NCBI RefSeq assembly: GCF_002222635.1
Contig: NZ_CP022415.1
Location: 1,488,001 to 1,552,000 of the forward strand
Origin: Pseudosulfitobacter pseudonitzschiae
GTDB lineage: Bacteria > Pseudomonadota > Alphaproteobacteria > Rhodobacterales > Rhodobacteraceae
DNA: 64,000 nucleotides
Direction: 5' to 3'
The position numbers were made by a program, and so were the translations under genes. Below the pieces are notes generated by a model. That model was given only the letters and a program-made list of their open reading frames with translations. It made no database searches and was not told the DNA's origin. Positions 6,016 to 36,931 of the stretch are shown here, in pieces (positions within the stretch are counted from its first letter, which is position 1; each line of letters starts with the position of its first letter).

Positions 6016-6470
6016 GCGGCATCACTTTGAGGTGCAGGTACAATTTCGGACAGTTCAAGCACGCGGATCATCCGATCGTCCAGCAAAGTCAGCGCCTTGA
6101 TAATGCCCCCGCCACCGGTCGAGGCCGAATCCGGCGGTGGCTGCAGATCGTTAGAAGTAAGCGCAATGATGTCCGACACAGCATCGACCAGCAGGCCGGT
6201 CATCGTCTCTTCGAATTTCACCACGATAATCACGTTGCGATCGGTATGCTCGCGGGGCGGCAGCCCCAACCGTTCAGCCAGATCCATCACCGGCAAAACC
6301 GTGCCGCGCAGGTTGATCACACCCTTCATATAGCTGGGTGCATGGGGCAGTGGCGTGGTGCGGGTCCAGCCGCGAATTTCGCGGACGCACATGATATCGA
6401 GCGAATATTCCTGATCACTCAATCGGAAGGTCAGAAGCTCTACGGGGGTGCTGGGGGGGATGTCATTCAT
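6012..6470 (-). CDS. cheW: CheW, chemotaxis coupling protein
   Basis: A 152-residue single CheW domain that links chemoreceptors to CheA in the polar array. Visible family features are LLTFRLSDQEYSLDIMCVREI, the YMKGVINLRGTVLPVMDLAERLGL core and LLVDAVSDIIAL. Its start overlaps the cheA stop (ATGA) and its stop overlaps the cheR start, so expression is coupled. Length and domain content are standard. Confidence 0.95.
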   Translation of the reverse strand: MNDIPPSTPVELLTFRLSDQEYSLDIMCVREIRGWTRTTPLPHAPSYMKGVINLRGTVLPVMDLAERLGLPPREHTDRNVIIVVKFEETMTGLLVDAVSDIIALTSNDLQPPPDSASTGGGGIIKALTLLDDRMIRVLELSEIVPAPQSDAA

Positions 6471-8602
6471 GGCGTCATTTCCATCAATTTGGGAGAGAGG
6501 GCCGAGGTGTTGCTCTGGGCCTGTGCGATGATGTCTGCAGGATCAAGGATCAGGGCAATCTGCCCGTCACCAAGGATTGTCGCAGCGGCAATTCCGGGCG
6601 CGCGATAAAAGCTTTCGTCGAGCCCCTTAATAACAACCTGACGCTGGTCCTGAATCTGGTCGACGATCAGGGCGGCCCGGCTGCCTGCCTCGTCAGCAAT
6701 CAGCAGAACGACAGAGTCCAGATAACTGTCTTGCGCCTTGCGGTATCCCAATTCGACCCCAAGATCGAACAATGAGACAAATTCGCCGCGCACCCGGACC
6801 ACGTTCAGACCGGGGCGGGTTTGTTCAAGATTGTCGTGGTCAATGGTCAGTGTTTCGATCACCAGATTAAGCGGCAAGACCATCGTTTCACCCGCCACAT
6901 GCACAACCATCCCGTCCAGCACGGCAAGCGTCAGCGGCAGCGAAATCGAGAAGGTCGTGCCGCTGCCCGGCGTGGACGTGATGGTGATCCGCCCGCCCAG
7001 TGATTGGATGGCATTGCGCACAACATCCATTCCAACGCCACGTCCGGACAGGTCCGAGACCTCGGAGGCCGTCGAAAACCCCGGCAAAAACAGAAGGTTG
7101 TCGATTTCCATGTCGGACAGCACAGCATCTTGGGCGATCAGACCCTTGATCGTCGCGATCTGCTGGACTTTGTGCCGGTTTATGCCGCCGCCGTCGTCGG
7201 AGACCTCGATGATCACGCGGCCCGAGCGGTGGGCGGCGGTCAGTTTAACGGTGCCCTGTTCCGGCTTGCCTGCGGCGATGCGATCCTGCGTGGCTTCCAG
7301 ACCGTGATCAACGGCATTGCGGATCATATGGGTCAGCGGGTCGGACAAGCGTTCGATGACAGTTTTGTCGACCTCGGTTGTGTCGCCTTCGGTGACAAGA
7401 CGCACGTCCTTGTGCACCGCTGCGGAACATTCACGCACGATGCGCGACATACGTTGAAACAGTGATTTGACGGGCTGGGCGCGGATCATCATCACGCTGT
7501 CCTGAATGTCGCGGGTCAGGCGCTGGAATTCTTCAAGCCCGTTCATCGCGTCTGAATGGGGCGACAGGCCGGAAGATTCGAGGCTTTGTGACAACATCGC
7601 CTGATTGATGACCAATTCGCCCACAAGGTTCACCAGACGCTCAATCCGATCCAGATCGACGCGCACGACGGCTTTGGCAGCGGGCGGTTGTATTGTCTTG
7701 GCCTTGGCGGCGGGAGACGGCGGGGCGCTGACCGGGGCGGACTCGGCCGGTTCGGGTTTGGCGGCAAAGGACGGGACCAGATCGGGCAGGGGCGGCAGAT
7801 CAGGCAAGGCTGTGCTTGCCGGGACCGCTTGCGTAGCTTGTGGGCTTTCAACCGTCAAGTCGCACAGACCTTCGACAAATTCGAAGACCGAGGCAATTTC
7901 ATCCTCAGTCACGTCCGCTGTCAGGACGATGGTCCATTCCAGATAGGCCGCTTCGGGCGCGCACTCTGTCAGTCGGGGCACCTTGTCGGTCACGCAGATA
8001 ATCTCGCAGGGGCCAAGATCTGTCAGCGCGCGCAGGATCATAAAAGGCTCGTTGCCCGTTTCATAAAGCTCGGCGTGCGGGACAAAATGTATTGTGAACT
8101 GTCCGGCTCTGGCGGATGGCAACGGTGGCAGGTCTGGCAGGCACAGATCAAGTGCGAGGCCCATCGGTTGAAAGTCGATCTCCGCTTCGTCTTCTTCTTC
8201 CACGCCCTTGTTGCCCAGCAGCGCATCCAATTCGGTCAGGATCGCATTGCCCTCAGCTTCGGGCAGCACGCCGCCATCGCGCGACTCCCGCACCAGATCC
8301 GATAGGTGATCGGCGGCGCGAAAGAACAGTTTAATCGCGTCACCATCGGCCACCAGCGTGTTGCTGCGCACACCGTCCAGCACCGTTTCGTAGCGATGCG
8401 CAAAGCGCACCAACCCTTCAAGCCCAAAGGCACCTGCACCCCCCTTGATCGAATGGACCGCGCGGAAAACAACGTTGATGGTTTCAAGATCGTCGCCGTT
8501 GTCGGCCATAGTTTGCAGACCGTCCTGCAATGCCTCTAGCAGCTCTTCGCATTCGATAAAGAAAGAGGCCCTGATTTCGGCCATCGGGTCGGGTTGGGAC
8601 AT
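6467..8602 (-). CDS. cheA: CheA, chemotaxis sensor histidine kinase
   Basis: A 711-residue cytoplasmic kinase with the full CheA layout: an Hpt domain with phospho-acceptor H50 in AVHSIKGGAGAFG, a less conserved middle, a Pro/Ala-rich linker at about 265-310, the P3 dimerisation helices, the ATPase domain with the N-box HMIRNAVDHGLEA, DDGGGI and GRGVGMDVV, and a C-terminal CheW-like P5 domain (VLPLNLVIETL to LILDPADII). It autophosphorylates and passes phosphate to the two CheY proteins in this operon. It lies between cheY and cheW. Confidence 0.96.
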   Translation of the reverse strand: MSQPDPMAEIRASFFIECEELLEALQDGLQTMADNGDDLETINVVFRAVHSIKGGAGAFGLEGLVRFAHRYETVLDGVRSNTLVADGDAIKLFFRAADHLSDLVRESRDGGVLPEAEGNAILTELDALLGNKGVEEEDEAEIDFQPMGLALDLCLPDLPPLPSARAGQFTIHFVPHAELYETGNEPFMILRALTDLGPCEIICVTDKVPRLTECAPEAAYLEWTIVLTADVTEDEIASVFEFVEGLCDLTVESPQATQAVPASTALPDLPPLPDLVPSFAAKPEPAESAPVSAPPSPAAKAKTIQPPAAKAVVRVDLDRIERLVNLVGELVINQAMLSQSLESSGLSPHSDAMNGLEEFQRLTRDIQDSVMMIRAQPVKSLFQRMSRIVRECSAAVHKDVRLVTEGDTTEVDKTVIERLSDPLTHMIRNAVDHGLEATQDRIAAGKPEQGTVKLTAAHRSGRVIIEVSDDGGGINRHKVQQIATIKGLIAQDAVLSDMEIDNLLFLPGFSTASEVSDLSGRGVGMDVVRNAIQSLGGRITITSTPGSGTTFSISLPLTLAVLDGMVVHVAGETMVLPLNLVIETLTIDHDNLEQTRPGLNVVRVRGEFVSLFDLGVELGYRKAQDSYLDSVVLLIADEAGSRAALIVDQIQDQRQVVIKGLDESFYRAPGIAAATILGDGQIALILDPADIIAQAQSNTSALSPKLMEMTP

Positions 8603-8614
8603 CTTTTGGTTCTC

Positions 8615-8980
8615 CTATCCAGCGACCATTTGCAGGGCTTTGATCAGCTTGGCCGGATCAAAGGGTTTAACGATCCAGCCTGTGGCCCCTGCATTGCGCG
8701 CCCGCGCCTTCAGTTCGGGTGCGGCTTCGGTCGTAAGCACCAGAATGGGCGTGGCGCGGTGTTTGGCCTGTCCGCGTACCGCGTCGATAAAGCCGAAACC
8801 GTCCATGCGAGGCATGTTGATGTCGGTGATGATCGCGTCGGGCGCGATGCCGTTCAGTACCTCGACACCGTGAATCCCGTCGTCGGCGGTGGTCACGGTA
8901 AAACCCGCAGGCTCCAGCGCCAGCCGGATCATGTCGCGCATGGTGCGGCTGTCATCAACGGCGAGAATATTCAGGCTCAT
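8615..8980 (-). CDS. cheY: CheY-type single-domain response regulator
   Basis: A 121-residue receiver with acidic pair AVDDSRTMR (D9, D10), phospho-acceptor D53 in AIITDINMPRMDG, threonine in VLTTEAAPE and lysine in WIVKPFDP. The ATPILVLTTE segment resembles classical motor-binding CheY proteins more closely than the second cheY of the operon does. It overlaps the STAS gene upstream by four bases and precedes cheA. This is the cheX-cheY-cheA order known from Caulobacter. Confidence 0.93.
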   Translation of the reverse strand: MSLNILAVDDSRTMRDMIRLALEPAGFTVTTADDGIHGVEVLNGIAPDAIITDINMPRMDGFGFIDAVRGQAKHRATPILVLTTEAAPELKARARNAGATGWIVKPFDPAKLIKALQMVAG

Positions 8981-12088: not shown

Positions 12089-13201
12089 ATGGCGCCAAAG
12101 CGTCCCAAAGGTGCGGGCGCGCTCGAACAACCGGCTCTGAGCCCCGTGCCTCAGTCCGGATCACGTGAGCTTTATGCCGCGCTCGATCTGGGCACGAACA
12201 GTTGTCGTATGCTGATTGCCCAACCCAAGGGAACGGGCTTTCATGTGATCGACAGTTTCTCCAAATCCGTCCAGCTGGGTGCGGGTCTGGAACGAACCGG
12301 GCGTTTGTCGCGCGGATCAATGGCGCGCACCATTCAGGCGTTGCGCATCTGCCAGCAAAAGCTGCGCCAGCACAAGGTGCGGCGTATGAAACTGGTCGCA
12401 ACCGAAGCCTGTCGGCGCGCGGTAAATGCGCAGGAATTCATCCAGCGGGTCCATCGTGAGACCGGATTGCGGCTGGACATCATCCAGCCCGAGGAAGAAG
12501 CGCGGCTGGCCGTGATCTCTTGCGCCCCTCTGGTCAATCGCAAGACCCAGAACCTGTTGGTGGTGGACATCGGGGGCGGGTCGACCGAGTTGGTGTGGAT
12601 CGACATTTCCAAGGTACCCAAGAACGATCGCCCGCAGGCGATCATGCGGCTGCACAGCGGTTTCAACACGGCGGCCGTCAAAAACGTACCACAGGCTCGC
12701 GTGGTTGACTGGATCAGCGTGCCATTGGGCGTGGCCACATTGCGCGACCAGTTCAACGATGTCGAAGACGACGCCGCGCGCTTTGCGCTGATGAGCTGGT
12801 TTTTTGAAGAGAACCTTGCGGATTTTGCACCCTACCATGACACCAAAGTACACGAGAAATTCCAGATCGTCGGCACCTCTGGCACCGTGACCACGGTTGC
12901 GGCGTCGCATCTGGGGCTGAAACGCTATGATCGCACGCGGGTGGACGGGTTGCGCATGTCATCCGAGCAGATCGACAAGGTGATCCGGAGCTATCTGGAC
13001 ATGGGGCCGGGGGGGCGTCGGGCCGATCCGCGTATCGGGCAGGACCGGCAGGCGCTGATCATGTCGGGGGCCGCGATCTTGCAGGCGTTGATGCGCTGCT
13101 GGCCCACCGACCGGCTGAGCGTGGCCGACCGTGGCCTGCGCGAGGGGCTGCTTTATGCGCAAATGAGTGCGGATGGCGTGCTGGGCGACGGGGTGCTTTA
13201 G
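12089..13201 (+). CDS. ppx: Ppx/GppA-family phosphatase (exopolyphosphatase-like)
   Basis: A 370-residue member of the ASKHA fold that hydrolyses polyphosphate and/or pppGpp. The first phosphate-binding loop is [14 protein letters not shown], the second is [17 protein letters not shown], and [12 protein letters not shown] lies in the third. The EEEARLAV segment is also typical. It is the short alphaproteobacterial form without the C-terminal HD-like domain of E. coli Ppx (about 510 residues), so polyphosphate and pppGpp activity cannot be told apart. It precedes rlmE by 130 bp on the same strand. Confidence 0.88.
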
Positions 13202-15547: not shown

Positions 15548-16435
15548 TCATTGCGTGCCCTCACGCATGTCAAAGGCCTGTGCCGTGGTATAAAACGCCT
15601 CGATGATCGGGTTGCGCGTTTCTTTCAGGCTGAACACCGTCTCGTGCGTGGCGAGGCCGCGCATCTCGACGATCGGCAACCGTGCAACCCCGTCGGTGCG
15701 GCTGGTGCTGGCGCGCCACATAAAACCGACGCCCAGTCCATTCACCACCGCCTCGTAAAGCCCGTCGCGTGCATCAAGCGTCAAAAAGGGCTGTGGCGTC
15801 AGATTGGCGCGGGCAAACATGCGCTCTACAGCCCGCTGGGTTGACGATCCAGAGGCGCGAAAGATCAGGTGTTCGCGCGAAAGCTCTTCCACCGTGACTT
15901 CGGTTGCCTGCGCCAGCGGGTGGCCTGCGGGGGCAATGGCAATGACCTCGGAATAGGCCAGTTGTTCGCGCCGGAACCGCGGATCGTTCGGCACATCGGG
16001 TAAAACCCCGATGTCGCACTCGTGGGTCAGCACTGCACGGGCAATCTTTTGATGCGAGCCGGTTTCGACATCCAGTGTCACGCCCGGATAGGCGCGGTGA
16101 AAGGCGGCGATCACTGCCATTCCCGGCATTGCATTGCCCAGACCGATGGCAATCCGTCCTTCGCGCAGGGATGACCGGCTGCGCAGCAACCGTTCGGCCA
16201 CGTCGCGGGCCTCGGCGGCGCGTTCGGCCAGATCGCACAGCTTCAGACACAACGTTGTCGGAACCAGCTGACCTGATTCCCGCATGAACAGCCGCACCCC
16301 GAATTCCGCCTCCAATGCGCGCACTTGCCCCGAAACATTGGGCTGCGTGACACCCAACAGACGGGCTGCCCCGGCGTAAGAGCCGCCCTCGGCCACGGCG
16401 CGGATGGCGTTCAAACGGGAAGTGCTGATTGTCAT
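15548..16435 (-). CDS. LysR-family transcriptional regulator
   Basis: A 295-residue regulator with an N-terminal winged helix (RLNAIRAVAEGGSYAGAARL, then LGVTQPNVSGQVRALEAEFG) and a C-terminal periplasmic-binding-like effector domain. A TTG at 16450 is in frame, but the ATG at 16435 gives the usual LysR N-terminus. It is divergent from the phosphatase/ABC operon, the classical arrangement for a LysR activator of its neighbour, so it probably controls that operon. Confidence 0.9.
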   Translation of the reverse strand: MTISTSRLNAIRAVAEGGSYAGAARLLGVTQPNVSGQVRALEAEFGVRLFMRESGQLVPTTLCLKLCDLAERAAEARDVAERLLRSRSSLREGRIAIGLGNAMPGMAVIAAFHRAYPGVTLDVETGSHQKIARAVLTHECDIGVLPDVPNDPRFRREQLAYSEVIAIAPAGHPLAQATEVTVEELSREHLIFRASGSSTQRAVERMFARANLTPQPFLTLDARDGLYEAVVNGLGVGFMWRASTSRTDGVARLPIVEMRGLATHETVFSLKETRNPIIEAFYTTAQAFDMREGTQ

Positions 16436-16458
16436 TTCCGGAGAATCCAAATGGCGGC

Positions 16459-16488
16459 TTTGCTTTACCCATAGTCTAGGTTTGCTTT
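16459..16488. promoter_or_regulatory. Direct repeats in the LysR/phosphatase divergent promoter
   Basis: TTTGCTTT occurs twice, at 16459-16466 and 16481-16488, exactly 22 bp apart (two helical turns), in the intergenic region between the LysR gene and the operon it faces. Same-face spacing suits a dimeric regulator. No clear T-N11-A palindrome was found at this spot. Confidence 0.35.
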
Positions 16489-16569
16489 GTTACAGGAACA
16501 TCACACTGCACCGTCATGTGTCGCGGCAGAAGCGGGGCCAACGCCCTGCACATGCCGGGAGACAGCCCC

Positions 16570-17325
16570 TTGGACGTTGCGTCGAACCTTATTTCTCTGG
16601 CCCAAAGCCACTCCAAGCTCGACGCACGTGTCGTCGCGCAGGCGAAACTGGTTCTATGTGACCTCGACGGTTGCCTGATCGCAGAAGGGCGCGCCTTTGC
16701 CGATACGGCGGATTTTGTCGCGGGCTGCGGCGCGCGGCTGTGGATCGTCTCGAATGCCTCAGACACCACGGCTGCGGACATGTCGTTGCGTCTGGCAAAC
16801 CTTGGCATCCACGTCCCCGCCGAGCGTATCCTGCTGGCCGGTGAAATCATGCTGGATTACGTGGCCAACGTCGAACAGATCCGCCACATGCGCCTGTTTG
16901 CACCCGCCGCGCTGATCGAAAGCGCCAAAGCATTGGGGGTCGACCCCGCTGCGGAGGTCCCCCAAGCGGTCCTGCTGTGCCGTGACCCCGCTGTGACCGT
17001 CGACACTTTGGGCCAAATTCTGGCGCTGGTCGGGCAGGGCGCGCCGCTGTGGGTGGCCAACGAAGACCTGTCACATCCCGGTCATGATACCCAGCCCGTG
17101 GCTGAAACCGGTGCCTTGCTGGCTGCGTTGCGCGCGATCCGGCCCGCGTTGGTCTGGCGCAGTCTGGGCAAGCCCGATCCGACGATGCTGACAATGGCGC
17201 TGGCACGCAGCGGTCTGGGCGCGGCCGATGCAATCTTTGTGGGCGACAACGCCCTGACCGACGGGCGCGCCGCGGCCGCCCTTGGCATGTCCTTCATTCA
17301 TATCCAAAGGAGCATCTCGCGATGA
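16570..17325 (+). CDS. HAD-superfamily phosphatase (class IIA, NagD-like)
   Basis: A cytoplasmic HAD hydrolase of about 251 residues. Motifs are LCDLDGCLI (nucleophile and acid aspartates), IVSNASDTTA (motif II), SLGKPDPTML (motif III lysine) and FVGDNALTDG (motif IV). The NagD-type cap lies between motifs II and III. A TTG start at 16570 follows GGGAGA at ideal spacing; ATGs at 16552 and 16516 are in frame but have weaker sites. It overlaps the first permease gene (ATGA). Its place at the head of an ABC operon suggests it removes phosphate from an imported compound or its breakdown product. Confidence 0.87.
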   Translation: MDVASNLISLAQSHSKLDARVVAQAKLVLCDLDGCLIAEGRAFADTADFVAGCGARLWIVSNASDTTAADMSLRLANLGIHVPAERILLAGEIMLDYVANVEQIRHMRLFAPAALIESAKALGVDPAAEVPQAVLLCRDPAVTVDTLGQILALVGQGAPLWVANEDLSHPGHDTQPVAETGALLAALRAIRPALVWRSLGKPDPTMLTMALARSGLGAADAIFVGDNALTDGRAAAALGMSFIHIQRSISR

Positions 17326-18248
17326 TCCCGTATCTTGTACGTATTGCGGTCAAATCCGTAATAACATTGTTCGCGATCGCAACGGTCACGTTCATCGCCA
17401 CCCGCCTGTCTGGTAACCCTATCGACACCTTTCTGGGCGACGGGCTGACGGAGGAGGGGCGCGCCGAATTGATCCGGTATTTCCAGCTCGATTCCTCGCT
17501 CTGGCAACAATACCTTGCCTTTTTACGCGGTGCGGTCTCGGGCGAGTTTGGCCTGAGTTTCGTCGATCGCCGCCCCGTCACAGACGTGGTGACCAGCCGA
17601 CTTTGGGCCTCGGGCCAGTTGTTGCTCAGCTCGGTGGCCTTGACCCTTGCGGTGTCAATCCCGCTGGGTGTGCTGGGCGCGATTTACCGCAAAAGCTGGA
17701 TCGGTTCTGCGGTGATGATGGTGGCCTTTGCCGGATATGCGGTGCCTTCCTTTATTTTGGCCATCGTGATGATTTTGATCTTTTCCTATTGGCTGAACTG
17801 GCTGCCCGTGGTGGGCAACGGCAGTTTTGCCCACTTCATCATGCCGACCCTCGCCATGTCGGGGGTGCTGGTCGCGGCGCTGACACGCTTTACCCGCAAT
17901 GCCATGCTGGATGTGCTGGGGCAGGATTTTATCCGCACTGCCCGCGCCAAGGGTCTAAGCGAGGCGCGCGTGGTGCTGCGCCACGGTCTGGGCAATGCCG
18001 GCGTCACTGTGATCTCGGTAATCGGGCTGCAAGTGGCGGGACTGGCTGCGGCGGGCAGCGTGGTCGTCGAAAGCATCTTTTCTTGGCCGGGAATCGGACA
18101 GCTTTTGGTGAACGCAGCCCTCGTACGTGATTATCCGGTACTGCAATTCGGCGTGATCACCGTCGCCGTGGCCGTCGTCGCCATCAACGCCATCACTGAC
18201 GTGTCCTATGCGCTGGCCGATCCGCGCATCCGACTTGCCCGCAACTGA
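17322..18248 (+). CDS. ABC transporter permease, peptide/nickel type (DppB-like)
   Basis: A 308-residue inner-membrane protein with about six helices. It has the DppB-type N-terminus (one helix, then the periplasmic region containing FLGDGLTEEGRAELI) and the cytoplasmic EAA-loop region DFIRTARAKGLSEARVVLRHGLGNA that docks on the ATPase. It pairs with the next gene. It is translationally coupled to the HAD phosphatase gene. Confidence 0.93.
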   Translation: MIPYLVRIAVKSVITLFAIATVTFIATRLSGNPIDTFLGDGLTEEGRAELIRYFQLDSSLWQQYLAFLRGAVSGEFGLSFVDRRPVTDVVTSRLWASGQLLLSSVALTLAVSIPLGVLGAIYRKSWIGSAVMMVAFAGYAVPSFILAIVMILIFSYWLNWLPVVGNGSFAHFIMPTLAMSGVLVAALTRFTRNAMLDVLGQDFIRTARAKGLSEARVVLRHGLGNAGVTVISVIGLQVAGLAAAGSVVVESIFSWPGIGQLLVNAALVRDYPVLQFGVITVAVAVVAINAITDVSYALADPRIRLARN

Positions 18249-18259
18249 GGAGACAGAGC

Positions 18260-19135
18260 ATGACATCCCTCGCAGATCCCGCCATCGTGCCGCGCGCCCA
18301 ACGGGGCACGACGAACTTTATCCAGAAAATCGCCATCGGGATTGCCGTGGTGCTGTTCGCGCTGGCCATGTTGGCCCCTTGGATCGTGCCGTTTGGCCCT
18401 CTGGATCAAAGCCTGCTCAGCCGGTTGCGCCCCCCCTTGGGCTTTGAGCGGTTCGCGATTGGCCACTACGCAGGCACCGATGAGCTGGGCCGCGATGTGC
18501 TGTCGCGCGCTTTGCACGGAATGCGACTGACCCTGGTGCTGGCCTTTGCCGGGGCCATGATCGGTCTTGCGATTGGCGGCACGCTGGGATTGGTCGCAGG
18601 GCTGCGGCGCGGCTGGGTCGAGGATGTGATCATGTCGCTGGTCGATATGCAGATCGCCATTCCCTTCACGCTTGTGGCGTTGCTGATCCTATCGCTTATG
18701 GGGTCGAACCTGACCGTTCTGGTGCTGGTTCTGGGCATCGCCGGATGGGAACAATACGCCCGCATCGTGCGCGCCGAAGTGCGCCGCCTGTCGTCGCTGC
18801 CCTTTATCGAGGCGGCTTGGACCGCCGGGGCAGGGTCCGTCTATATCGCATGGCGCCATGTGCTGCCCAATCTGGTCGCGCCGCTGGTGGTGCAGTTCAC
18901 GCTGGCGCTGTCCAATATCGTGATCCTTGAAAGCACGCTCAGCTTTCTGGGGCTGGGTGTGCAGCCGCCACACCCCTCACTTGGTTCGATGGTGGGGCTG
19001 GGACGCGACTATATGCCGACCGCGCCGTGGATCGTGCTGGTGCCTGCCGCGCTGATCGTGGCGCTGACCTTTTCCGTGCAGATCCTTGGTGACTGGCTGC
19101 GTGACCGCGCCGATGTCCGTCTGCGCGACCGATAA
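18260..19135 (+). CDS. ABC transporter permease, peptide/nickel type (DppC-like)
   Basis: A 291-residue permease with the DppC-type N-terminus (IAVVLFALAMLAPWIVPFGP) and the GTDELGRDVLSRALHGMRL box. The EAA loop runs from LSSLPFIEAAWTAGAG to HVLPNL. It begins 11 bp after the DppB-like gene and completes the membrane part of the importer. Confidence 0.93.
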   Translation: MTSLADPAIVPRAQRGTTNFIQKIAIGIAVVLFALAMLAPWIVPFGPLDQSLLSRLRPPLGFERFAIGHYAGTDELGRDVLSRALHGMRLTLVLAFAGAMIGLAIGGTLGLVAGLRRGWVEDVIMSLVDMQIAIPFTLVALLILSLMGSNLTVLVLVLGIAGWEQYARIVRAEVRRLSSLPFIEAAWTAGAGSVYIAWRHVLPNLVAPLVVQFTLALSNIVILESTLSFLGLGVQPPHPSLGSMVGLGRDYMPTAPWIVLVPAALIVALTFSVQILGDWLRDRADVRLRDR

Positions 19136-19205
19136 CAATCCAAAGAGCCGCAGCAAGCGGCCCAATCAAACCTGAACGAAACGTTGAAACCAAACACCGG
19201 AGAAC

Positions 19206-20759
19206 ATGATGTTCCGACTGATGCTGACCACCGCCCTTGCTGTGCTGCCGCTTGCTGTCACTGCACAGGAAATCACAGTGGGTGCCGCCAACATGGCCCC
19301 CTATCTTGATCCGGGCCGCGACCATTCGAACGTGGGGTCGCAGTTCTATTACAACAGCTTTGACACGCTGATCGACCGTGACCACGCCAAGCTGGAACCC
19401 GAATGGGTGCCCGCACTTGCCACGTCATGGGAACTGGTCTCGCCCACCGTGATGGAGTTGAAACTGCGCGAGGGCGTCAAGTTTCACAACGGTGACCCGA
19501 TGACCGCCGACGATGTGATCTTCTCGCTGAACCGGATGATGCAGGCCACGTTCCCGCCCTATGTGGTGCGCGCCAAGGACCGTCTGGCCAACTTTCCCAA
19601 TGCCGAAAAAGTGGACGAGACCACGATCCGCATCAATGCCAACCGCGAAGAGCCGCTGTGGGAAACGCTGATTTCACTGCAACAGGTCATGATCATCCCC
19701 GAAGCCTATACCAAGGCGCTGACAGGTGATCCGGACGTGGCCGAAGACAGTGATTTCGAGGCTTTCGCACTCGCACCTGTCGGCACCGGACCCTATAAAA
19801 TCGAAAGCTTCCAGCCGGGCGAAAAACTGGTCTGGACCCGCTTTGACGAGTTTTGGGGCGAAAAGGCACCGCTGGAACGTGTGAACGTCGTGCAAATCTC
19901 GGAAACCGCCAGCCGCGTCACCGCCCTGAAAACAGGCGAGGCCGACATCATCACCAATATCGCACCCGACCAGCTGTCGCTGATCGACAATGACCCCGCG
20001 CTGAAAACAGCGGGTTCGGCCACTGCACTGTTCCATGTGATGATCATGAACCAGAACCACCCCAAGCTGGAAGATCCGCGCATCCGTCAGGCAATGAGCC
20101 TTGCCATTGATCGCGACGCGCTGAACGAAGCCCTGTGGCTGGGCAAGGCGATCGTGCCGTCGACGCATACAATGGCTGAAATGGGCGCCTTGCATCAGCC
20201 CGATCTGGTGACGTTCGAATACGACCCCGCACGGGCCAAGGCATTGCTGGAAGAGGCCGGCTATGACGGGTTCGAAATCACCTATGACACCGCGCCCAGC
20301 TATTACACCAACGGAGTGCTGGCAGCACAGGCGATCATGGAAATGTGGGCTGCGGTCGGCATCAACGGCAAGATCGTCGTCGGTGACAAATGGACCGGAA
20401 ACGCACCTGAACTGATGGCGCGCAATTGGTCGAACCCTATGTATTTCGCTGATCCCTTTGGTTCGTTCGGCGTGATGTGGGCCCCTGATGGTCCGTCGCA
20501 AAGCGAAGGCCGTTTCAACACTGACGCGGATTACGCCGAGAAATGGGAACGCTTCCGGTTCTCGACCGACGTCGCGGAGCGCAAGGCGGCCTATGCCGAG
20601 CTGATGGAACGGGTGAAAGAAAATCCGGCCGTTCTGCCGCTTTATCGTCCGTTTGAAAGCTGGGGGATGAAAACCTCGATCAACTGGGCGCCAATGCCCG
20701 GTCACATTCCTTACGTTCTCGATTTCCGCGCGGGCAGCATCACGCTGGCCGGTAGCTGA
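19206..20759 (+). CDS. ABC transporter substrate-binding protein, family 5
   Basis: A 517-residue periplasmic protein with a signal peptide (MMFRLMLTTALAVLPLAVTA, cleaved before QEITVG). The family 5 (SBP_bac_5) signatures include LATSWELVSPTVMELKLREG, VKFHNGDPMTADDVIFSLNR and GTGPYKIESFQPGEKLVWTR. Family 5 proteins bind peptides, opines, nickel complexes, oligosaccharides and some glycerophospho-compounds. The two phosphatase genes of the operon favour an organophosphate ligand, which is an inference. CGGAGAAC lies before the ATG. Confidence 0.92.
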   Translation: MMFRLMLTTALAVLPLAVTAQEITVGAANMAPYLDPGRDHSNVGSQFYYNSFDTLIDRDHAKLEPEWVPALATSWELVSPTVMELKLREGVKFHNGDPMTADDVIFSLNRMMQATFPPYVVRAKDRLANFPNAEKVDETTIRINANREEPLWETLISLQQVMIIPEAYTKALTGDPDVAEDSDFEAFALAPVGTGPYKIESFQPGEKLVWTRFDEFWGEKAPLERVNVVQISETASRVTALKTGEADIITNIAPDQLSLIDNDPALKTAGSATALFHVMIMNQNHPKLEDPRIRQAMSLAIDRDALNEALWLGKAIVPSTHTMAEMGALHQPDLVTFEYDPARAKALLEEAGYDGFEITYDTAPSYYTNGVLAAQAIMEMWAAVGINGKIVVGDKWTGNAPELMARNWSNPMYFADPFGSFGVMWAPDGPSQSEGRFNTDADYAEKWERFRFSTDVAERKAAYAELMERVKENPAVLPLYRPFESWGMKTSINWAPMPGHIPYVLDFRAGSITLAGS

Positions 20760-20767
20760 TCCAATCA

Positions 20768-20790
20768 GGGCCGGGTGATGCACCCGGCCC
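20768..20790 (+). promoter_or_regulatory. Intercistronic hairpin after the binding-protein gene
   Basis: Perfect 10-bp stem, GGGCCGGGTG (20768-20777) and CACCCGGCCC (20781-20790), with a 3-base loop, 8 bp after the stop codon. No T-run follows. It probably stabilises the upstream mRNA or attenuates transcription into the phosphoesterase and ATPase genes. Confidence 0.7.
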
Positions 20791-20812
20791 ACACCCCAAA
20801 GGAGCGCAATCC

Positions 20813-21658
20813 ATGACACGGATCGCCATCGTCACCGACATTCACCACGGCGCGCCATCCCATACCAAACGGGGCGACACCGCACTGGACCTGCTGGGCC
20901 AGTTTGCCGGTTGGGCCAATACACAAAAGCCCGATCTGGTTTTGGATTTAGGCGACCGGATTTCTGACATCGACACCCAGACCGACATGCGGCTGGAACG
21001 CGAAGTGGCAGAAGTGTTCGCGCAGATTGACGCGCCGGTGCAACATATCTGCGGCAACCACGACCGCGACCATCTGAGCGTGGCCGAAAACGAACAGATT
21101 CTGGGGACCGCACTGGGCCATGAGGTGATCGACCTTGGCGATTGGCAGTTGTTGCTGTGGCGTGCCGATGCCAAGATTCACCGCGACACGCCGCGCGTGG
21201 GCTTTGATCTGCCCGAACCGGATTTGCTGTGGCTGTCTCACACCCTGCAACGTGCCGAAAAGCCGACATTGGTCGCCAGTCACGTGCCCTGCTCGGGTCA
21301 CAGCCAGACCGGCAACTATTACTTCCAGCGCAACGCCAGCCTGTCGACCTATCCGCAGGCCGACCGTGTGCGCGACGTGCTGGCACAGGCCCGCGTACCA
21401 TTGGCCTGTATCGCGGGGCATGTGCATTGGAACACCGTGACCACCGTGAACGGCACCCCACACATCACGCAGCAAAGCCTGACCGAAAGCTTTACCACCG
21501 CAGGTGAACCCGCCCGTGCTTGGGGGATGCTGGAGCTGGGCGATACAATCCATTGGCAGGTGTTCGGGGATGACCCGTTCGAGGCGCGCCTGACCCCGAC
21601 GAACCAGCGCTGGACGGCGCCGCTGGCACCCTTTGTCTCAAAGCTTGCTGCGGAATGA
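20813..21658 (+). CDS. Cytoplasmic metallophosphoesterase (class III phosphodiesterase-like)
   Basis: A 281-residue calcineurin-like enzyme with no signal peptide. The dinuclear metal site is visible as IVTDIHHG, DLGDRISDID, CGNHDRDH, VASHVPCSG and IAGHVHWN. The order and size fit the CpdA/GpdQ group, which hydrolyses phosphodiesters such as cyclic nucleotides or glycerophosphodiesters. It sits between the binding-protein and ATPase genes of an importer and overlaps the latter, so it is likely to act on the imported compound. Its product could be dephosphorylated by the HAD enzyme at the head of the operon. Confidence 0.85.
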   Translation: MTRIAIVTDIHHGAPSHTKRGDTALDLLGQFAGWANTQKPDLVLDLGDRISDIDTQTDMRLEREVAEVFAQIDAPVQHICGNHDRDHLSVAENEQILGTALGHEVIDLGDWQLLLWRADAKIHRDTPRVGFDLPEPDLLWLSHTLQRAEKPTLVASHVPCSGHSQTGNYYFQRNASLSTYPQADRVRDVLAQARVPLACIAGHVHWNTVTTVNGTPHITQQSLTESFTTAGEPARAWGMLELGDTIHWQVFGDDPFEARLTPTNQRWTAPLAPFVSKLAAE

Positions 21659-23313
21659 AACTGATGCCCCCCAATCCGCCCGTCATGTCGGTTCGCGACC
21701 TGCGCGTTGCATTCGGTGCAACCGAGGCAGTCCACGGTCTGTCTTTTGATATCCACCGTGGCGAAACGCTGGCGCTGGTCGGTGAAAGCGGCTCTGGCAA
21801 AAGTGCCACGGCGCTGTCGATCCTGCGTCTGATCGAACGCGAGGGCGGGCAGATCACGGGGGGCACAATCCGGCTGGGCGGGACACGTCCCGCCAACATT
21901 ACATCGTTGCGGGCGTCCGAACTGCGCGCCTTGCGCGGTGACCGCGTGGCGATGGTGTTTCAAGAGCCGATGACATCGCTCAATCCGGTGATGACCATCG
22001 GCGCGCAGATTTGCGAAACACTTAGCCTGCATCGCGGCCTGCACGGTGCCGCCGCCCGAGAAGCAGCACGCGCCGCACTGGAACGGGTAAAAGTGCCCGA
22101 GCCTGCGCAGCGTCTGAATCAATACCCGCATGAATTGTCCGGTGGCCTGCGTCAGCGTGTAATGATTGCAATGGCCCTAACCTGCGAACCCGAAGTGCTG
22201 ATCGCGGACGAACCCACAACCGCGCTGGACGTGACGACCCAAGCCGAAATCCTGCGCTTGATCGCGTCGCTGCAACGCGAGATGGGCATGGCGGTGTTGT
22301 TCATCACCCACGACCTTGGCGTCGTTTCGGAAATCGCTGATCGCGTTGTGGTGTTGAAAGACGGGCTGAAGGTCGAAGAAGGCTTTACCGCTGATCTGTT
22401 CGCATCGCCGCGCGCCGATTATACCAAGGAGTTGATGGCCGCATCCCCGCGTCTGGGAGAGGGCGCGCCGGTGCCCTTGGACAATCCCGCGCCGGTTTTG
22501 CAGGTCAACGGTCTGACCACCACCTATGGCGGCGGACTGTTCGCGCGTGCCAGCGCAAAGGCGGCCGTGCGCGATGTTTCGATCACGCTGGGGCGCGGCG
22601 AAACACTGGGGCTGGTGGGCGAATCCGGTTGTGGCAAATCCACCCTTGCTCGGTCGATCATGCGTCTGGTCACCCCCTCTGCTGGCGAGATCACGCTGCT
22701 GGGCAACCGGATCGACGGGCTGTCACGTGCCGCACTCAAAGCGCACCGGTCACATATCCAGATGGTGTTTCAGGATCCCTATGCCTCGCTTAATCCGCGC
22801 ATGTCGATCTGCGATGTTGTGACAGAGCCTGCATTCTTGCACGGAATGGTCAACCGCACGGACCGCAAAGCGATGGCGCTGGACCTGTTGGCGCGCGTCG
22901 GCCTGCCTGCCGATGCGGTCGACCGGTACGCACACCAGTTTTCGGGTGGCCAGCGCCAACGCATCTGTATCGCCCGCGCCCTGTCTGTTCGCCCGCAAAT
23001 CATCGTCGCGGACGAGGCCGTGTCGGCGCTGGATGTGTCGAACGCGCGCCGGATCACCGACCTGATGGCTGACATCCAGAAGCGCGACGGTGTGTCGATG
23101 CTGTTCATCAGCCACGACATTGCCGTGGTCGAACGGGTCAGCCACCGTATCGCGGTAATGCTGAACGGCCAGATTGTCGAAACCGGCCCCACCGACCGCG
23201 TGCTGCACGACCCGCAACATTCCTATACTCAACGGTTGCTGGCGTCGGTGCCACGAGTTGCCGCAAGACACACACCGCTGAGGGTGGCAGGCGCACATCC
23301 GGTCGACGCCTGA
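21655..23313 (+). CDS. ABC transporter ATPase with two fused nucleotide-binding domains
   Basis: A 552-residue fusion of the DppD- and DppF-type ATPases, like YejF or GsiA. Domain 1 (residues 1 to about 265) has [18 protein letters not shown] and ADEPTTALD. Domain 2 (about 280-552) has [18 protein letters not shown] and ADEAVSALD, where alanine replaces the usual Walker B proline. The C-terminal oligopeptide-type extension of each domain is short. The ATG overlaps the phosphoesterase stop codon. It powers the importer encoded just upstream. Confidence 0.93.
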
Positions 23314-23376
23314 TTTCGCAGCTTTTGAAGGGGGCAGGGTCGGTGCAGCACCAGATGCGCCAGAAAGTTTTCGACT

Positions 23377-23397
23377 GTCACATTTCCGATGTGTGAC
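23377..23397. promoter_or_regulatory. Inverted repeat upstream of plcP, possible Pho-type operator
   Basis: GTCACA at 23377-23382 and TGTGAC at 23392-23397 form an inverted repeat with a 9-base spacer, about 32 bp before the plcP start. CTGTCAC at 23375 also fits one Pho-box half-site, with weaker halves 11 and 22 bp downstream (CCGATGT, CTGCGTT). plcP-btaAB genes are PhoB-controlled in other bacteria, but the match here is incomplete. Confidence 0.4.
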
Positions 23398-23428
23398 TGC
23401 GTTATGACACCCCAAAGGCACACAACAT

Positions 23429-24253
23429 ATGGACGGTTCAGTGCGGCACCGGACAATATTCATCTCTGACGTCCATCTTGGTACACTTGGCTGCCAAGCT
23501 GAAATACTGCTGGATTTCCTGTCGAAAAATCAGGCCGACACGATCTATCTGATTGGTGACATCATTGACGCATGGCGGTTGCGGCGTGGATGGTTCTGGC
23601 CCCAAAGCCACAACGACGTGGTGCAGGAACTGCTGTCACGTGCCCATGACGGGGCCAAAATCTTTTACATTCCCGGCAACCACGACGAGATGTTGCGCAA
23701 CTATCTGGGCACGCATTTCGGCGGCGTCGAAGTGGTCGAGACCGCACCCCACACCACCGCCGACGGCAGGCGGCTGCTGGTCACTCACGGCGACCAGTTC
23801 GACAGCATCGTGGTCAATGCCAAATGGCTGGCCCATGTAGGCGACCGTGCCTATGAGTTCGCGCTTTGGCTGAACACATGGGTGAACCGGATCAAACGGC
23901 TGTGGGGCGGGCAATATTGGTCCCTGTCGAAATGGGCCAAACATCAGGTCAAACAAGCGGTCAGCTTTATCAGTGAATACGAACATGTGCTGGCCGATGA
24001 AGCACGGCGCAACGGCTATGACGGGGTCGTATGCGGGCATATCCACAGCGCCTGTATCCGCAAGATCGACGGGCTGGATTACATCAATACCGGCGATTGG
24101 GTCGAAAGCTGCACCGCCGTTGTCGAACATATGGACGGCTCGCTGCACCTGATCGACTGGGCCGAGCATATGCGCACAGGTGTCGCACGTCCCGCGCGGC
24201 GCAAAGCCGGTCGCCGCACCGCAGCCTTAACCAAAGACAAAGAGGTGGCATAA
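23429..24253 (+). CDS. plcP: PlcP-type phospholipase C (metallophosphoesterase)
   Basis: A 274-residue calcineurin-like enzyme with FISDVHLGTLG, LIGDIIDAW, YIPGNHDEML, VTHGDQFD and VCGHIHSACI. The fold resembles LpxH. The direct link to btaA and btaB identifies it as PlcP, which splits phospholipids to diacylglycerol plus a phosphorylated head group during phosphate starvation. Diacylglycerol is the substrate of the next gene product. The spacing to btaA is 5 bp. A basic tail (RPARRKAGRRTAA) may aid membrane contact. Confidence 0.88.
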   Translation: MDGSVRHRTIFISDVHLGTLGCQAEILLDFLSKNQADTIYLIGDIIDAWRLRRGWFWPQSHNDVVQELLSRAHDGAKIFYIPGNHDEMLRNYLGTHFGGVEVVETAPHTTADGRRLLVTHGDQFDSIVVNAKWLAHVGDRAYEFALWLNTWVNRIKRLWGGQYWSLSKWAKHQVKQAVSFISEYEHVLADEARRNGYDGVVCGHIHSACIRKIDGLDYINTGDWVESCTAVVEHMDGSLHLIDWAEHMRTGVARPARRKAGRRTAALTKDKEVA

Positions 24254-24258
24254 GCCCT

Positions 24259-25485
24259 ATGGCCAATTCCCAACAGATCGCCGACCGGCTTGGCGCTGCC
24301 GTTCACCAGAATGATGCGCTGAACGCCACGGGTTTCTTGGAGCGTATCTTTTCCCGCCTGTTTCAGGGTCTGGTTTATCCGCAGATCTGGGAAGATCCGG
24401 TGGTGGACATGGCGGCACTGGCGCTAAAACCAGGGCAGGATGTGTTCTGCATCGCCTCGGGCGGGTGCAATGCGATGTCCTATCTGACGGCACAGCCGGG
24501 ATCGGTCACTGCCGTTGACCTGTCGCCTGCCCATGTGGCGCTGGGTCGTTTGAAAGTGGCTGCGGCTGCGCGTCTGACCCAACCCGAATTTTTTGCACTC
24601 TTTGGACGCGGCGACAGCATCGACAATGTCGCGATCTATGACCGAAAGCTTGCACCGCTGCTTGACGCCCAGACCCGCGCCTTTTGGGAGGGGCGGGTGC
24701 TTGGCCGTCGACGCATTACGATGTTCGCGCGCGGCTTTCATAAATTCGGCCTGCTGGGTCGGTTTCTGAGTCTGGTCCACGCGGTGTCATGGCTGGCCCG
24801 TCTGGACTATACGCCGCTGCTGAACGCGCCGGATCTGGACGCGCAAACGCAATTTTACGACATCCGTATCGCGCCGCTACTGGATGCGGGGCCGGTCCGC
24901 TGGATGGCACGGCGGCGCGCGTCGCTGTTTGGCTTGGGCATTCCGCCCGCGCAATACGATAAACTGGCCGCAGATGGCGGTGGCGACGTGCTGCCGGTGC
25001 TGAAAGAGCGGGTGCGCAAACTGGCCTGCGATTTCCCGATCCGCGACAATTACTTTGCATGGCAAGCCTTTAGCCGCGGTTATCAGCCGGGCACGCCCCA
25101 GTCGGTGCCGCCCTATCTGGAAGCGCAAAATTTCAAAACTGTGGCACAGGGCGCGCAGAATGTGACCTTTGTGAACCGATCGATGACCGAACTGCTGGCC
25201 GAACGTGATGCGGCGTCGCTGGACGCTTATGTGCTGTTGGACGCCCAAGACTGGATGACCGATGCGCAACTGAACGCGCTGTGGGACCAGATTTCACGCA
25301 CGGCACGTCCGGGAGCGCGGGTAATTTTCCGAACCGGCGGCGCGGATGACATCTTGCCGGGCCGCGTGGCGTCCGAATTGCTCGACCGCTGGACCTATGA
25401 CGTGGCAACCTCGCAGGCGTGCTTTGCACAGGACCGGTCAGCGATCTACGGCGGCTTTCACCTCTACCGGTTGGGGGGCGTTTGA
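24259..25485 (+). CDS. btaA: BtaA, SAM:diacylglycerol 3-amino-3-carboxypropyltransferase
   Basis: A 408-residue enzyme that moves the aminocarboxypropyl group of S-adenosylmethionine to diacylglycerol, giving diacylglyceryl-homoserine. Family features include LVYPQIWEDPVVDMAAL, the nucleotide-binding VFCIASGGCNAMSYLTAQP followed by VTAVDLSPAHVALGRLK, and the C-terminal YVLLDAQDWMTD and ARVIFRTGG. The ATG at 24259 follows the plcP stop at once. It is followed by btaB. Confidence 0.93.
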   Translation: MANSQQIADRLGAAVHQNDALNATGFLERIFSRLFQGLVYPQIWEDPVVDMAALALKPGQDVFCIASGGCNAMSYLTAQPGSVTAVDLSPAHVALGRLKVAAAARLTQPEFFALFGRGDSIDNVAIYDRKLAPLLDAQTRAFWEGRVLGRRRITMFARGFHKFGLLGRFLSLVHAVSWLARLDYTPLLNAPDLDAQTQFYDIRIAPLLDAGPVRWMARRRASLFGLGIPPAQYDKLAADGGGDVLPVLKERVRKLACDFPIRDNYFAWQAFSRGYQPGTPQSVPPYLEAQNFKTVAQGAQNVTFVNRSMTELLAERDAASLDAYVLLDAQDWMTDAQLNALWDQISRTARPGARVIFRTGGADDILPGRVASELLDRWTYDVATSQACFAQDRSAIYGGFHLYRLGGV

Positions 25486-25487
25486 CG

Positions 25488-26129
25488 ATGGCCAACACCC
25501 TGTCACATGCCGACCTAATGGACAGCACATACCGCTATCAACGGCTGATCTATGACGTGACGCGGCGCTATTACCTGCTGGGTCGCGACCGGCTGGTGAC
25601 CGATCTGACGCCACCACACGGGGGCCGCGTGTTAGAGATCGGTTGCGGGACAGGGCGCAATCTGGCGCGGATCGCGGACACCTATCCGGGCTGCGCGCTG
25701 TTCGGTCTGGACATCTCGCAAGAGATGCTGCGCTCGGCCAAGGCAAAACTAGGCGCGCGCGCGGAACTGGTGCGTGCCGACGCCTGCGATTTTGACGGCA
25801 CAGCACTGTTCGGGGCAAGCGGGTTTGATCGCGTGGTGCTGTCTTACAGTCTGTCGATGATCCCCGACTGGGACCGTGCCCTGCGCATGGCCGCAGCGCA
25901 GCTTGCCCCCGCAGGTGAACTGCACGTGCTGGATTTTGGCGACCAAAGCCGGTTGCCACGCTGGTTCAGACACCTGCTTCGGGCGTGGCTGGGCCGGTTT
26001 CACGTGGCCCCCCGCGTCGATTTGCACGACCAGATGCAGGCAATCGCACAGGCACATGGGATGCAGTTGCGGTTCAAACAGCTTTATCGTGACTACGCGC
26101 AGTACGGTGTGATGGTGCGCGTCGTATAA
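25488..26129 (+). CDS. btaB: BtaB, SAM-dependent N-methyltransferase of betaine lipid synthesis
   Basis: A 213-residue class I methyltransferase that adds three methyl groups to diacylglyceryl-homoserine to make DGTS. The SAM motif is VLEIGCGTGRNLARIA, followed by LFGLDISQEML and VVLSYSLSMIPDWDRAL. The start lies two bases after the btaA stop. It is the last gene of the plcP-btaA-btaB operon. Confidence 0.92.
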   Translation: MANTLSHADLMDSTYRYQRLIYDVTRRYYLLGRDRLVTDLTPPHGGRVLEIGCGTGRNLARIADTYPGCALFGLDISQEMLRSAKAKLGARAELVRADACDFDGTALFGASGFDRVVLSYSLSMIPDWDRALRMAAAQLAPAGELHVLDFGDQSRLPRWFRHLLRAWLGRFHVAPRVDLHDQMQAIAQAHGMQLRFKQLYRDYAQYGVMVRVV

Positions 26130-35321: not shown

Positions 35322-36104
35322 ATGCCAATGATCCGCCCCGCACGACAGACCGCTCCGCAGTTCCGGATTTCGATGGCACGCGATGCGAATGATCTGATGG
35401 CGGCGCAGCGGCTGCGTTATGATGTGTTTGTGCGCGAACTGGGCGGCGGCGGCGACATGGTGGACCACGATGCGGGGTTGGAACAGGATCGCTTTGATCC
35501 GTTCTTTGACCATTTGCTGCTGCACGACATGGCACAGGGGCAGGTGGTCGGCGTTTACCGGATGCTGCGCAGTGATCAGGCGCGCGCGGCGGGGCAGTTT
35601 TATTCCGAAGACGAATATGATCTGACCCCCCTGCGGCAATCGGGGCGCAATCTGCTTGAGCTGGGGAGGTCATGCCTGCACCCTGACTATCGCGGTGGCA
35701 TGGCAATGCATTACCTGTGGTCGGCGCTGGCGTCCTATGTGGCCGAGCATGACATCGACATTCTGTTCGGCGTGGCCAGTTTTCATGGCACCGATACAAG
35801 TGCTTTGGCGGCCCCTCTTTCGTTGTTGCACCACCGCCATCTGGCACCGCCGGATGTGCGCGTGCGGGCACGTCCGGAGTCGTTTCAATCCATGAACCTG
35901 ATCCCCGAAGAGGTGCTGGACCGCCGCACCGCCATGTTGCAGGTGCCTGCGCTGATCAAAGCCTATATCCGCCTTGGTGGTGTGATCGGCGAGGGCGCGT
36001 GGATCGACCGGACCTTCAATACCACCGATGTCTGTCTGGTGATGGACACGGCCCATATGAACACCCGCCAAAGCCGTCTTTACACGGCACGGGGCAACAC
36101 ATGA
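35322..36104 (+). CDS. olsB: OlsB, L-ornithine N(alpha)-acyltransferase
   Basis: A 260-residue GNAT-fold enzyme (hemolysin-like group) that joins a 3-hydroxyacyl chain from ACP to ornithine, giving lyso-ornithine lipid. Signatures are AAQRLRYDVFVRELG, VVGVYRMLRSDQA, LLELGRSCLHPDYRGGMAM and a C-terminal IKAYIRLGGVIGEGAWIDRT. A second in-frame ATG lies two codons in. It overlaps olsA by four bases. Confidence 0.93.
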   Translation: MPMIRPARQTAPQFRISMARDANDLMAAQRLRYDVFVRELGGGGDMVDHDAGLEQDRFDPFFDHLLLHDMAQGQVVGVYRMLRSDQARAAGQFYSEDEYDLTPLRQSGRNLLELGRSCLHPDYRGGMAMHYLWSALASYVAEHDIDILFGVASFHGTDTSALAAPLSLLHHRHLAPPDVRVRARPESFQSMNLIPEEVLDRRTAMLQVPALIKAYIRLGGVIGEGAWIDRTFNTTDVCLVMDTAHMNTRQSRLYTARGNT

Positions 36105-36931
36105 CCACCACATGGGACGATGGTAACGTGCCAAAGCCGCGCCGTCTGGGCGCGGGCGATTGGGTGCGGGTAGCCCTGCGCGGCCTGACCGTCGGCGCGC
36201 TGGTCTTTGGCGGGTTGATTGTGCTGTTGTTGGTGCGTCTGGTCGAACGTCCGCTGTGCGGGCTGCGCCGTCCGGTCACACCTTTTATCACCGTAGGCGT
36301 GTGCAAGGGTGCGTTGCGATTGATTGGATTGCCATTGAGCGTGACAGGCGTGCCAATGCGTGGGCAGGGGGCTGTGGTGGCCAACCATTCGTCATGGCTG
36401 GATATTTTTGTGCTGAATGCCTCGAAACGGATCTATTTCGTGTCCAAGTCCGAGGTTGCAAGCTGGCCCGGCATCGGCTGGCTGGCGCGGTCGACGGGCA
36501 CTGTGTTTGTCGTGCGCGATCCGAAACGTGCATCCGAGCAGACGCAGGTGTTTCAGGACCGGCTTCTGGCGGGTCACAAGCTGTTGTTTTTCCCCGAAGG
36601 CACCAGCACCGACGGGCTGCGGGTGTTGCCGTTCAAGCCGACGCTGTTTCAGGCGTTCTTTGCACCCGAGCTGCGTGATATGTTGCAGGTTCAACCTGTT
36701 ACTGTGATCTATCATGCGCCCCGTGGCGCCGATGCGCGGTTTTACGGCTGGTGGGGCGACATGGTGTTTGGAACGCACCTGCTGGGCACGCTGGCTGCAC
36801 GCCGTCAGGGACGGGTCGAGGTGATCTATCATCCGCCCCTGAATGTCGCGGATTTCACCAACCGCAAGACACTGGCCGCTGCCGCCGAAGCCGCCGTGCG
36901 CGGCGCGCATGTGCTGGCGGCGGGCAACTGA
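36101..36931 (+). CDS. olsA: OlsA, lyso-ornithine lipid O-acyltransferase
   Basis: A 276-residue member of the 1-acylglycerol-3-phosphate acyltransferase family. One N-terminal membrane helix (GLTVGALVFGGLIVLLLVRL) is followed by the catalytic NHSSWLD (H-x4-D) and the FFPEGTSTDG motif. Coupling to olsB points to OlsA, which adds the second acyl chain of ornithine lipid, rather than PlsC. The preferred start is the overlapping ATG at 36101. Confidence 0.92.
   Translation: MTTTWDDGNVPKPRRLGAGDWVRVALRGLTVGALVFGGLIVLLLVRLVERPLCGLRRPVTPFITVGVCKGALRLIGLPLSVTGVPMRGQGAVVANHSSWLDIFVLNASKRIYFVSKSEVASWPGIGWLARSTGTVFVVRDPKRASEQTQVFQDRLLAGHKLLFFPEGTSTDGLRVLPFKPTLFQAFFAPELRDMLQVQPVTVIYHAPRGADARFYGWWGDMVFGTHLLGTLAARRQGRVEVIYHPPLNVADFTNRKTLAAAAEAAVRGAHVLAAGN

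Follow-up and report, generated by a model that had tools for sequence, protein, structure and literature searches.

Here we describe an operon within a window of 64,000 nucleotides, the whole stretch of DNA analysed from the marine bacterium Pseudosulfitobacter pseudonitzschiae (coordinates are numbered from its first letter; the host genome is 5.1 Mb). With a probability of roughly three in four, it encodes an inducible system that takes up and catabolizes a small phosphodiester, that is, a phosphate joining two alcohols, which would be hydrolyzed in two steps by a metallophosphoesterase (MPE) and a HAD phosphatase. The substrate is most likely a sugar or polyol phosphodiester. We favour this reading because the solute-binding protein (SBP) of the importer is kin to AccA and keeps its phosphate contacts, because MPE and HAD are fused in some relatives, because MPE has a GpdQ/Rv0805-like fold with all metal motifs, and because a phosphodiesterase-type gene lies beside seven of eight SBP relatives; the same evidence supports the import and two-step hydrolysis that a first-pass annotation of this DNA had proposed. 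Gene content, order, kinship, conserved residues and fusion were computed, whereas we infer that the diester is transported, which class it belongs to, how the operon is regulated and which of the two cuts comes first. Gene families were assigned with Pfam and NCBIfam models. The operon consists of the HAD phosphatase, two permeases, the SBP, the MPE and a fused double ATPase, ends at 23313, and is preceded by a divergent LysR gene; every gene named earlier is present, in its place, with an open frame.

15548..16435, minus strand: LysR-type regulator, divergent (PF03466/PF00126), kept beside the operon in related loci
16447..16487, no strand: putative LysR operator, two CCAWA-N7-TTTGCTT copies (pattern match)
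16570..17325, plus strand: HAD-IIA-like phosphatase (PF13344/PF13242), open frame from 16516, TTG 16570 being the likely start
17322..18248, plus strand: ABC importer permease 1 (PF00528)
18260..19135, plus strand: ABC importer permease 2 (PF00528)
19206..20759, plus strand: SBP of the AccA kind (SBP_bac_5, PF00496), assigned by PDB sequence and fold matches, residues and tree
20813..21658, plus strand: class III-type MPE (PF00149), presumed phosphodiesterase
21655..23313, plus strand: fused double ABC ATPase (PF00005 twice) with an oligo_HPY tail (PF08352)

The nearest solved relatives of the SBP are AccA proteins, both by sequence comparison with the PDB and by predicted fold, and a tree groups the window SBP with AccA, which binds agrocinopine, a sugar phosphodiester (PMC4526662). 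In that study (El Sahili et al., PMC4526662), AccA contacts the phosphate through N54, Y375, Y376 and S419 and the pyranose-2-phosphate through N284, W178, Y145 and E434, and a flexible loop 402-414 replacing a helix is described as unique to AccA. The phosphate quartet corresponds to N42, Y366, Y367 and S409 of the window SBP. It is complete in 16 of 17 orthologues (the exception is a Halomonas row without that part), in all eight AccA-like proteins and in five of seven further relatives, and is invariant in the 29-row folding alignment (25 orthologues and four AccA-like proteins). None of 16 control SBPs (DppA, NikA, OppA and 13 others) has it, the aligned residues of these distant proteins being less sure than those of relatives, with several gaps; it is also absent from one distant match. 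The sugar contacts, in contrast, are not matched, as the window SBP carries L275, Q159, R126 and M424 in place of N284, W178, Y145 and E434. Specifically, the N284 position is Leu or Ile in 17/17 orthologues versus Asn in 8/8 AccA-like proteins, and the W178 position is Gln or Ser in orthologues, with Trp in three and Tyr in five of the AccA-like proteins. The Y145 and E434 positions vary even among these eight, N284 alone being constant there; another AccA contact, E510, lies outside the alignment and hence was left out of the residue scoring, and Glu504 as numbered in the paper likewise disagrees with the numbering used here. Additionally, the predicted model has an AccA-type loop, with residues 393-404 as coil between strands 388-392 and 405-411, in a prediction whose alignment included the four AccA-like rows. 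With the phosphate contacts kept and the sugar contacts changed, the SBP should, as far as its sequence tells, hold a phosphate ester with an alcohol other than that of AccA.

The MPE contains the metal motifs DxH (D9/H11), GD (D48), GNHD (N82/H83), H (H157) and GHxH (H203/H205), all invariant in 30 of 30 aligned relatives, together with a conserved motif of its own, QSL-x-ESF. Its model (pLDDT 88.7) has GpdQ and Rv0805 among the nearest folds, at 16-21% identity in the structural alignments. The earlier description as GpdQ/CpdA-like holds for the fold and all metal motifs; among NCBIfam equivalogs, none reaches its cut-off. In the HAD phosphatase, the motifs DxDG, VSN, GKP and GDN..TDG are intact; as to "NagD-like", the NagD structure 2c4n matches at E 6.4e-11 and is distant kin. 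NagD itself was rejected as an identity, since the NagD equivalog, whose curated cut-off is 368 bits, scores the protein at 46.6; with the HAD-IIA model it reaches 68.6 bits, where 100.15 would be needed. A scan of genome contigs with the MPE returned 56 related loci, labelled here with L-numbers and examined with up to 10 kb of flank on each side, 51 of them with enough flank for comparison of gene order. In five of the 56 (L079, L081, L082, L083 and L085), MPE and HAD are fused into one protein; the hosts are alphaproteobacterial metagenome-assembled genomes and one from Synergistales.

The gene order that the first-pass annotation had picked out is conserved. The whole set, LysR<>HAD-permease-permease-SBP-MPE-ATPase, recurs in 35 of the 51 loci, and the order is therefore more than chance; permease-permease-SBP precedes MPE in 47. 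An RpiR regulator and a reversed HAD replace LysR and HAD in five loci, and four of the 51 are fusions, the fifth fusion having too little flank. The nearest named relatives of the MPE, from Sulfitobacter sp. 20_GPM-1509m and Pseudosulfitobacter pseudonitzschiae, are 87% identical. Among 292 sampled genomes of the order 10 have an MPE match (one with a stop, one in two pieces), and three of six do so in the genus. Plasmids of Octadecabacter and Halomonas also carry the full set, and a Chelatococcus plasmid carries a variant of it. Given this patchy distribution and the copies on plasmids, we read the operon as a horizontally moving catabolic trait, not as core phosphate metabolism. Some copies are apparently broken: the MPE gene has one internal stop in L012 (genome G141) and lies in two pieces in L018/L019 (G215), and a frame break occurs near the start of a Halomonas SBP (L023:8843-9070); either sequencing errors or the decay of the operon in certain lineages could account for this.

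Phosphodiesterase genes also accompany more distant importers of this kind. We opened eight further SBP relatives (L101-L106, L113 and L114), and in seven of them, with about 31-34% identity, a phosphodiesterase-type gene lies in or directly beside the ABC operon. It belongs to PF01663 or PF00884 (alkaline-phosphatase superfamily) in six and to PF00149 in two, L106 having both; that of L104 is convergent. The exception, L114, is a weak match with neither such a gene nor the quartet. None of six generic SBP_bac_5 operons has a phosphodiesterase, judged by gene name; one of them, L112, has a sulfatase-like gene upstream, with two opposite genes between. Outside this count stand the K84 acc operon with its GDPD gene and L028 with an MPE gene, which were opened for what they were, and L029, the best match below the orthologues, which holds GDPD, MPE and PF01663 genes. 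An AccA-like ABC operon adjoins the window-type operon in L050, L053, L054 and L065, and in L050 and L065 PF01663 genes cut by the stretch end lie beside it. The window-type operon of Halomonas has as neighbors ABC genes together with a gene annotated as GDPD and one of the alkaline-phosphatase family, and UgpB-type importers adjoin the operon in five loci. A scan of the neighbors for catabolic genes that would name the alcohol identified ABC importers and TIM-barrel proteins as recurrent families; further recurrent neighbors went unassigned, among them antisense frames and an SDR-like family that occurs at five loci.

Several of these neighborhoods show further arrangements. In L075 (2151-6502), and likewise in L069, L073 and L076, the permease-permease-SBP-MPE unit is immediately preceded by genes for a UgpB-type SBP, a pair of permeases and UgpC; a second MPE follows the unit in these four, and then another UgpC-like ATPase except in L076. 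On a Sinorhizobium fredii plasmid (L101:10063-14425), the AccA-like importer and its PF01663 gene are directly upstream of phnF-phnG-phnH-phnI-phnJ (C-P lyase). Genes for a GHMP kinase, an NTP transferase and a CDP-alcohol phosphotransferase stand beside AccA-like importers with a PF01663 gene on plasmids of Mesorhizobium, S. meliloti and Nitratireductor (L102:198-2824, L106:248-2569 and L113:1187-3569). These three enzymes could in principle make a phosphodiester, and a make-and-eat (rhizopine-like) system is possible there.

We propose the following mechanism. In the periplasm, the AccA-like SBP would grip the phosphate group via N42, Y366, Y367 and S409 and recognize the attached alcohol through residues unlike those of AccA. 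The intact diester, of which at least one alcohol is probably a sugar or polyol, would then enter the cell through the permease pair, driven by the double ATPase. Once it is in the cytoplasm, the dimetal MPE would cut one ester bond, yielding an alcohol and a phosphomonoester, from which the HAD phosphatase would then free phosphate and the second alcohol, so that the cell would gain carbon and phosphate. Activation of the operon probably falls to the divergent LysR protein, which would sense the diester or the monoester made from it and bind CAAAG-N5-CTTTG repeats.

Several observations weigh against this mechanism. The fold search, whose top row is the zebrafish dimetal phosphatase 2nxf, cannot separate a phosphodiesterase from a pyrophosphatase; the best NCBIfam match of the MPE is SpdA, at 29.5 bits with a cut-off of 400; and PF00149 proteins are common, with 16 in this genome. 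The flanks of four fusions out of five (L079, L081, L082 and L085) showed no reference importer gene, L082 offering only 0.5 kb upstream. No HAD was found beside MPE in seven of the 51 loci (four have a second MPE instead), nor in L022, although a divergent HAD could escape detection; the second hydrolysis step is thus not always local. The ATPase is missing right after MPE in seven of the 47 loci with permeases and SBP, and is UgpC-like in L069, L073 and L075. L106 and L113 have a phosphodiesterase-type gene with an incomplete quartet (TYYS and TWYA), and the AccA-like operons of L053 and L054 are without a phosphodiesterase of their own in the stretch examined.

Other substrates and roles were weighed against the sugar or polyol phosphodiester. 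Tentatively, the imported compounds could be glycerophosphodiesters, i.e. deacylated phospholipids such as glycerophosphocholine or glycerophosphoinositol, with the MPE as a GpdQ-type glycerophosphodiesterase and the HAD cleaving glycerol phosphate or the other monoester. However, four of the five loci with Ugp importers are close relatives of one another (UgpB 93-100% identical), the other common neighbors, TIM-barrel isomerase-like proteins and AccA-like importers, point to sugars, and AccA reads sugar phosphates (PMC4526662). Substrates of the nucleotide type, whether diester or pyrophosphate (2',3'-cyclic nucleotide, CDP-alcohol or ADP-ribose), which the MPE would open and the HAD would dephosphorylate, are unlikely. 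The weak SpdA match, SpdA being a 2',3'-cNMP phosphodiesterase, and the 2nxf and Rv0805 rows of the fold search would fit such a substrate, and the 2nxf family presumably has ADP-ribose/CDP-alcohol activity; the SpdA cut-off, however, is far from reached, AccA-type pockets bind sugar phosphates, and the recurrent neighbors that could be identified are importers and TIM barrels rather than nucleotide genes, many frames being left unassigned. By family name, SBP_bac_5 proteins and Dpp/Opp-type permeases and ATPases mostly form peptide importers, and two unrelated phosphoesterases might have been picked up by one of these. This is highly improbable: the AccA kinship of the SBP, together with a phosphate quartet that none of the control SBPs shares, led us to reject an ordinary peptide importer and makes peptides unlikely as its substrate, and MPE remains part of the operon in Rhodobacterales, Hyphomicrobiales, Acetobacteraceae, Halomonas and a Synergistales metagenome-assembled genome.

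The first-pass annotation had also tied the operon to phosphate limitation and to plcP-btaAB, and a PhoB-controlled phosphate-scavenging unit working with these genes would be in keeping with their adjacency in this genome and with a comparison of 39 promoter regions, whose best match to the Pho consensus has on average 4.74 mismatches versus 5.71 in their shuffles. In Phaeobacter sp. MED193, phosphate starvation raises PlcP and BtaA, neither of which is detected in the phoB mutant (PMC10132767); this response says nothing on the operon upstream of plcP. The tie did not hold up. Within the flanks examined, BtaA and BtaB occur near the operon in 0/56 loci and PlcP in 2/56, and in both congeners with MPE and BtaA (the genomes of L030 and L031) the two are on different contigs. 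Furthermore, a Pho box with at most three mismatches is found in none of the 39 promoter regions (0.32 expected from shuffles), a LysR-type dyad being seen instead; the consensus has low power in this genome, with six matches versus three for the reversed pattern. Across the window, five matches versus 4.45 expected amount to chance, and the best one upstream of plcP (23393-23410, minus strand, three mismatches) is itself weak. We judge such a unit quite improbable, and the adjacency to the betaine-lipid genes plcP-btaAB is probably chance, although the promoter regions, resembling the consensus somewhat more than their shuffles do, may still be under weak Pho control. The neighboring genes, all outside the system, are as follows.

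23429..24253, plus strand: plcP-type phosphoesterase (PF00149), adjacency not conserved
about 24259..25485, plus strand: btaA (DUF3419, PF11899), open reading frame read from 24031
about 25488..26129, plus strand: btaB-type methyltransferase (PF13649 and others), open reading frame read from 25419

The names plcP, btaA and btaB are those we presume to apply, the models giving families only. About 9 kb after btaB (35322-36931) lie genes for a GNAT protein (PF13444) and a lysophospholipid-type acyltransferase (PF01553), a pair that we take to resemble olsB-olsA for ornithine lipid; with btaAB, two phosphorus-free lipid routes would be close together.

Returning to the proposed phosphodiester system, we compared it with known ones. 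The statement that no described system has this set proved too strong, as the agrocinopine acc operon of Agrobacterium is a described counterpart, though its enzymes differ; it comprises the SBP AccA, the transporter AccBCDE, the phosphodiesterase AccF, the putative phosphatase AccG and the regulator AccR (PMC4526662). Both share the SBP family and fold, the phosphate contacts, a peptide-type ABC importer and a cytoplasmic phosphodiesterase and phosphatase. AccF, however, is of the GDPD type (its K84 homologue is PF03009) whereas the window has an MPE of PF00149, and a HAD phosphatase stands in place of AccG; the window type has a LysR (or RpiR) regulator and a fused ATPase, the AccA sugar contacts N284 and W178 are replaced, and no T-DNA link was seen. 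By content the operon is not acc, having MPE and HAD where acc has AccF and AccG, another regulator and none of the sugar contacts; by analogy, it appears to follow the logic of acc with a different, unrelated enzyme pair. The xanthosan system XanT-XanP of Xanthomonas likewise imports and hydrolyzes a sugar phosphodiester for nutrition but uses a TonB-dependent outer-membrane transporter and a 2H-phosphoesterase, proteins unrelated to those of the window (PMC12807533). With the class III phosphodiesterases GpdQ, Rv0805 and CpdA the MPE shares fold and metal motifs, but it differs in its low identity to GpdQ and Rv0805, its place in an importer operon and its own motif. UgpBAEC and UgpQ import glycerophosphodiesters and cleave them in the cytoplasm, which resembles the route proposed here, but with a CUT1-type importer and a GDPD enzyme rather than a peptide-type importer, MPE and HAD. 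We found no published description of this gene set in a literature search that was judged by titles and abstract openings and included few subscription journals.

The nearest NCBIfam model of the LysR protein is phn_lysR (TIGR03339), at 194.7 bits; as the curated cut-off is 341.1, we rejected an AEP-type PhnLysR identity. The 134-bp gap between LysR and HAD contains two CCAWA-N7-TTTGCTT repeats (16447-16465 and 16469-16487), 22 bp apart, which are the only exact matches in the whole window and whose dyad is close to CAAAG-N5-CTTTG. When a single mismatch is allowed, 28 of the 39 promoter regions contain one or more sites; the mean is 0.92 sites per region versus 0.009 in mononucleotide shuffles, the pattern having been derived from the same, mutually related regions on which it was scored. 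The repeats look like a putative LysR operator. Among 11 aligned promoter regions, the window's included, TTG 16570 is aligned in all and a GGAGAC-type site precedes it in most, so HAD translation most likely starts there and not at 16516.

Phosphodiesters make up a large, poorly identified share of dissolved organic phosphorus. On a broader proposal our judgement is evenly balanced: AccA would be one branch of a large class of "phosphodiester-reading" SBPs that hold the phosphate by an N-Y-Y-S grip. Every branch would have a phosphodiesterase as partner, interchangeably a GDPD, a metallophosphoesterase or a member of the alkaline-phosphatase superfamily. The operon in the window would be a marine branch for an environmentally common sugar or polyol phosphodiester, and its enzyme pair would also have fused into a bifunctional diester-to-phosphate enzyme. 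If an SBP signature reads the phosphodiester group, it could be used to search genomes and metagenomes for such importers among proteins at present classed as peptide transporters, and the results would point to the phosphodiesters on which these bacteria feed. The agrocinopine system, known from tumour-inducing plasmids, would thereby gain a wider family and a non-pathogenic background.

Elsewhere in the window, a Ppx/GppA-family phosphatase is encoded at 12089-13201, separated by about 2.3 kb from the end of the LysR gene. Chemotaxis genes occupy 3434-8980, with CheD (3434-3949) and CheA (6467-8602) assigned by Pfam and frames resembling cheR, cheW and cheY, judged from sequence only, between or beside them. 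A LuxR-type autoinducer-binding regulator (PF03472) is located at 40381-41142 on the minus strand.

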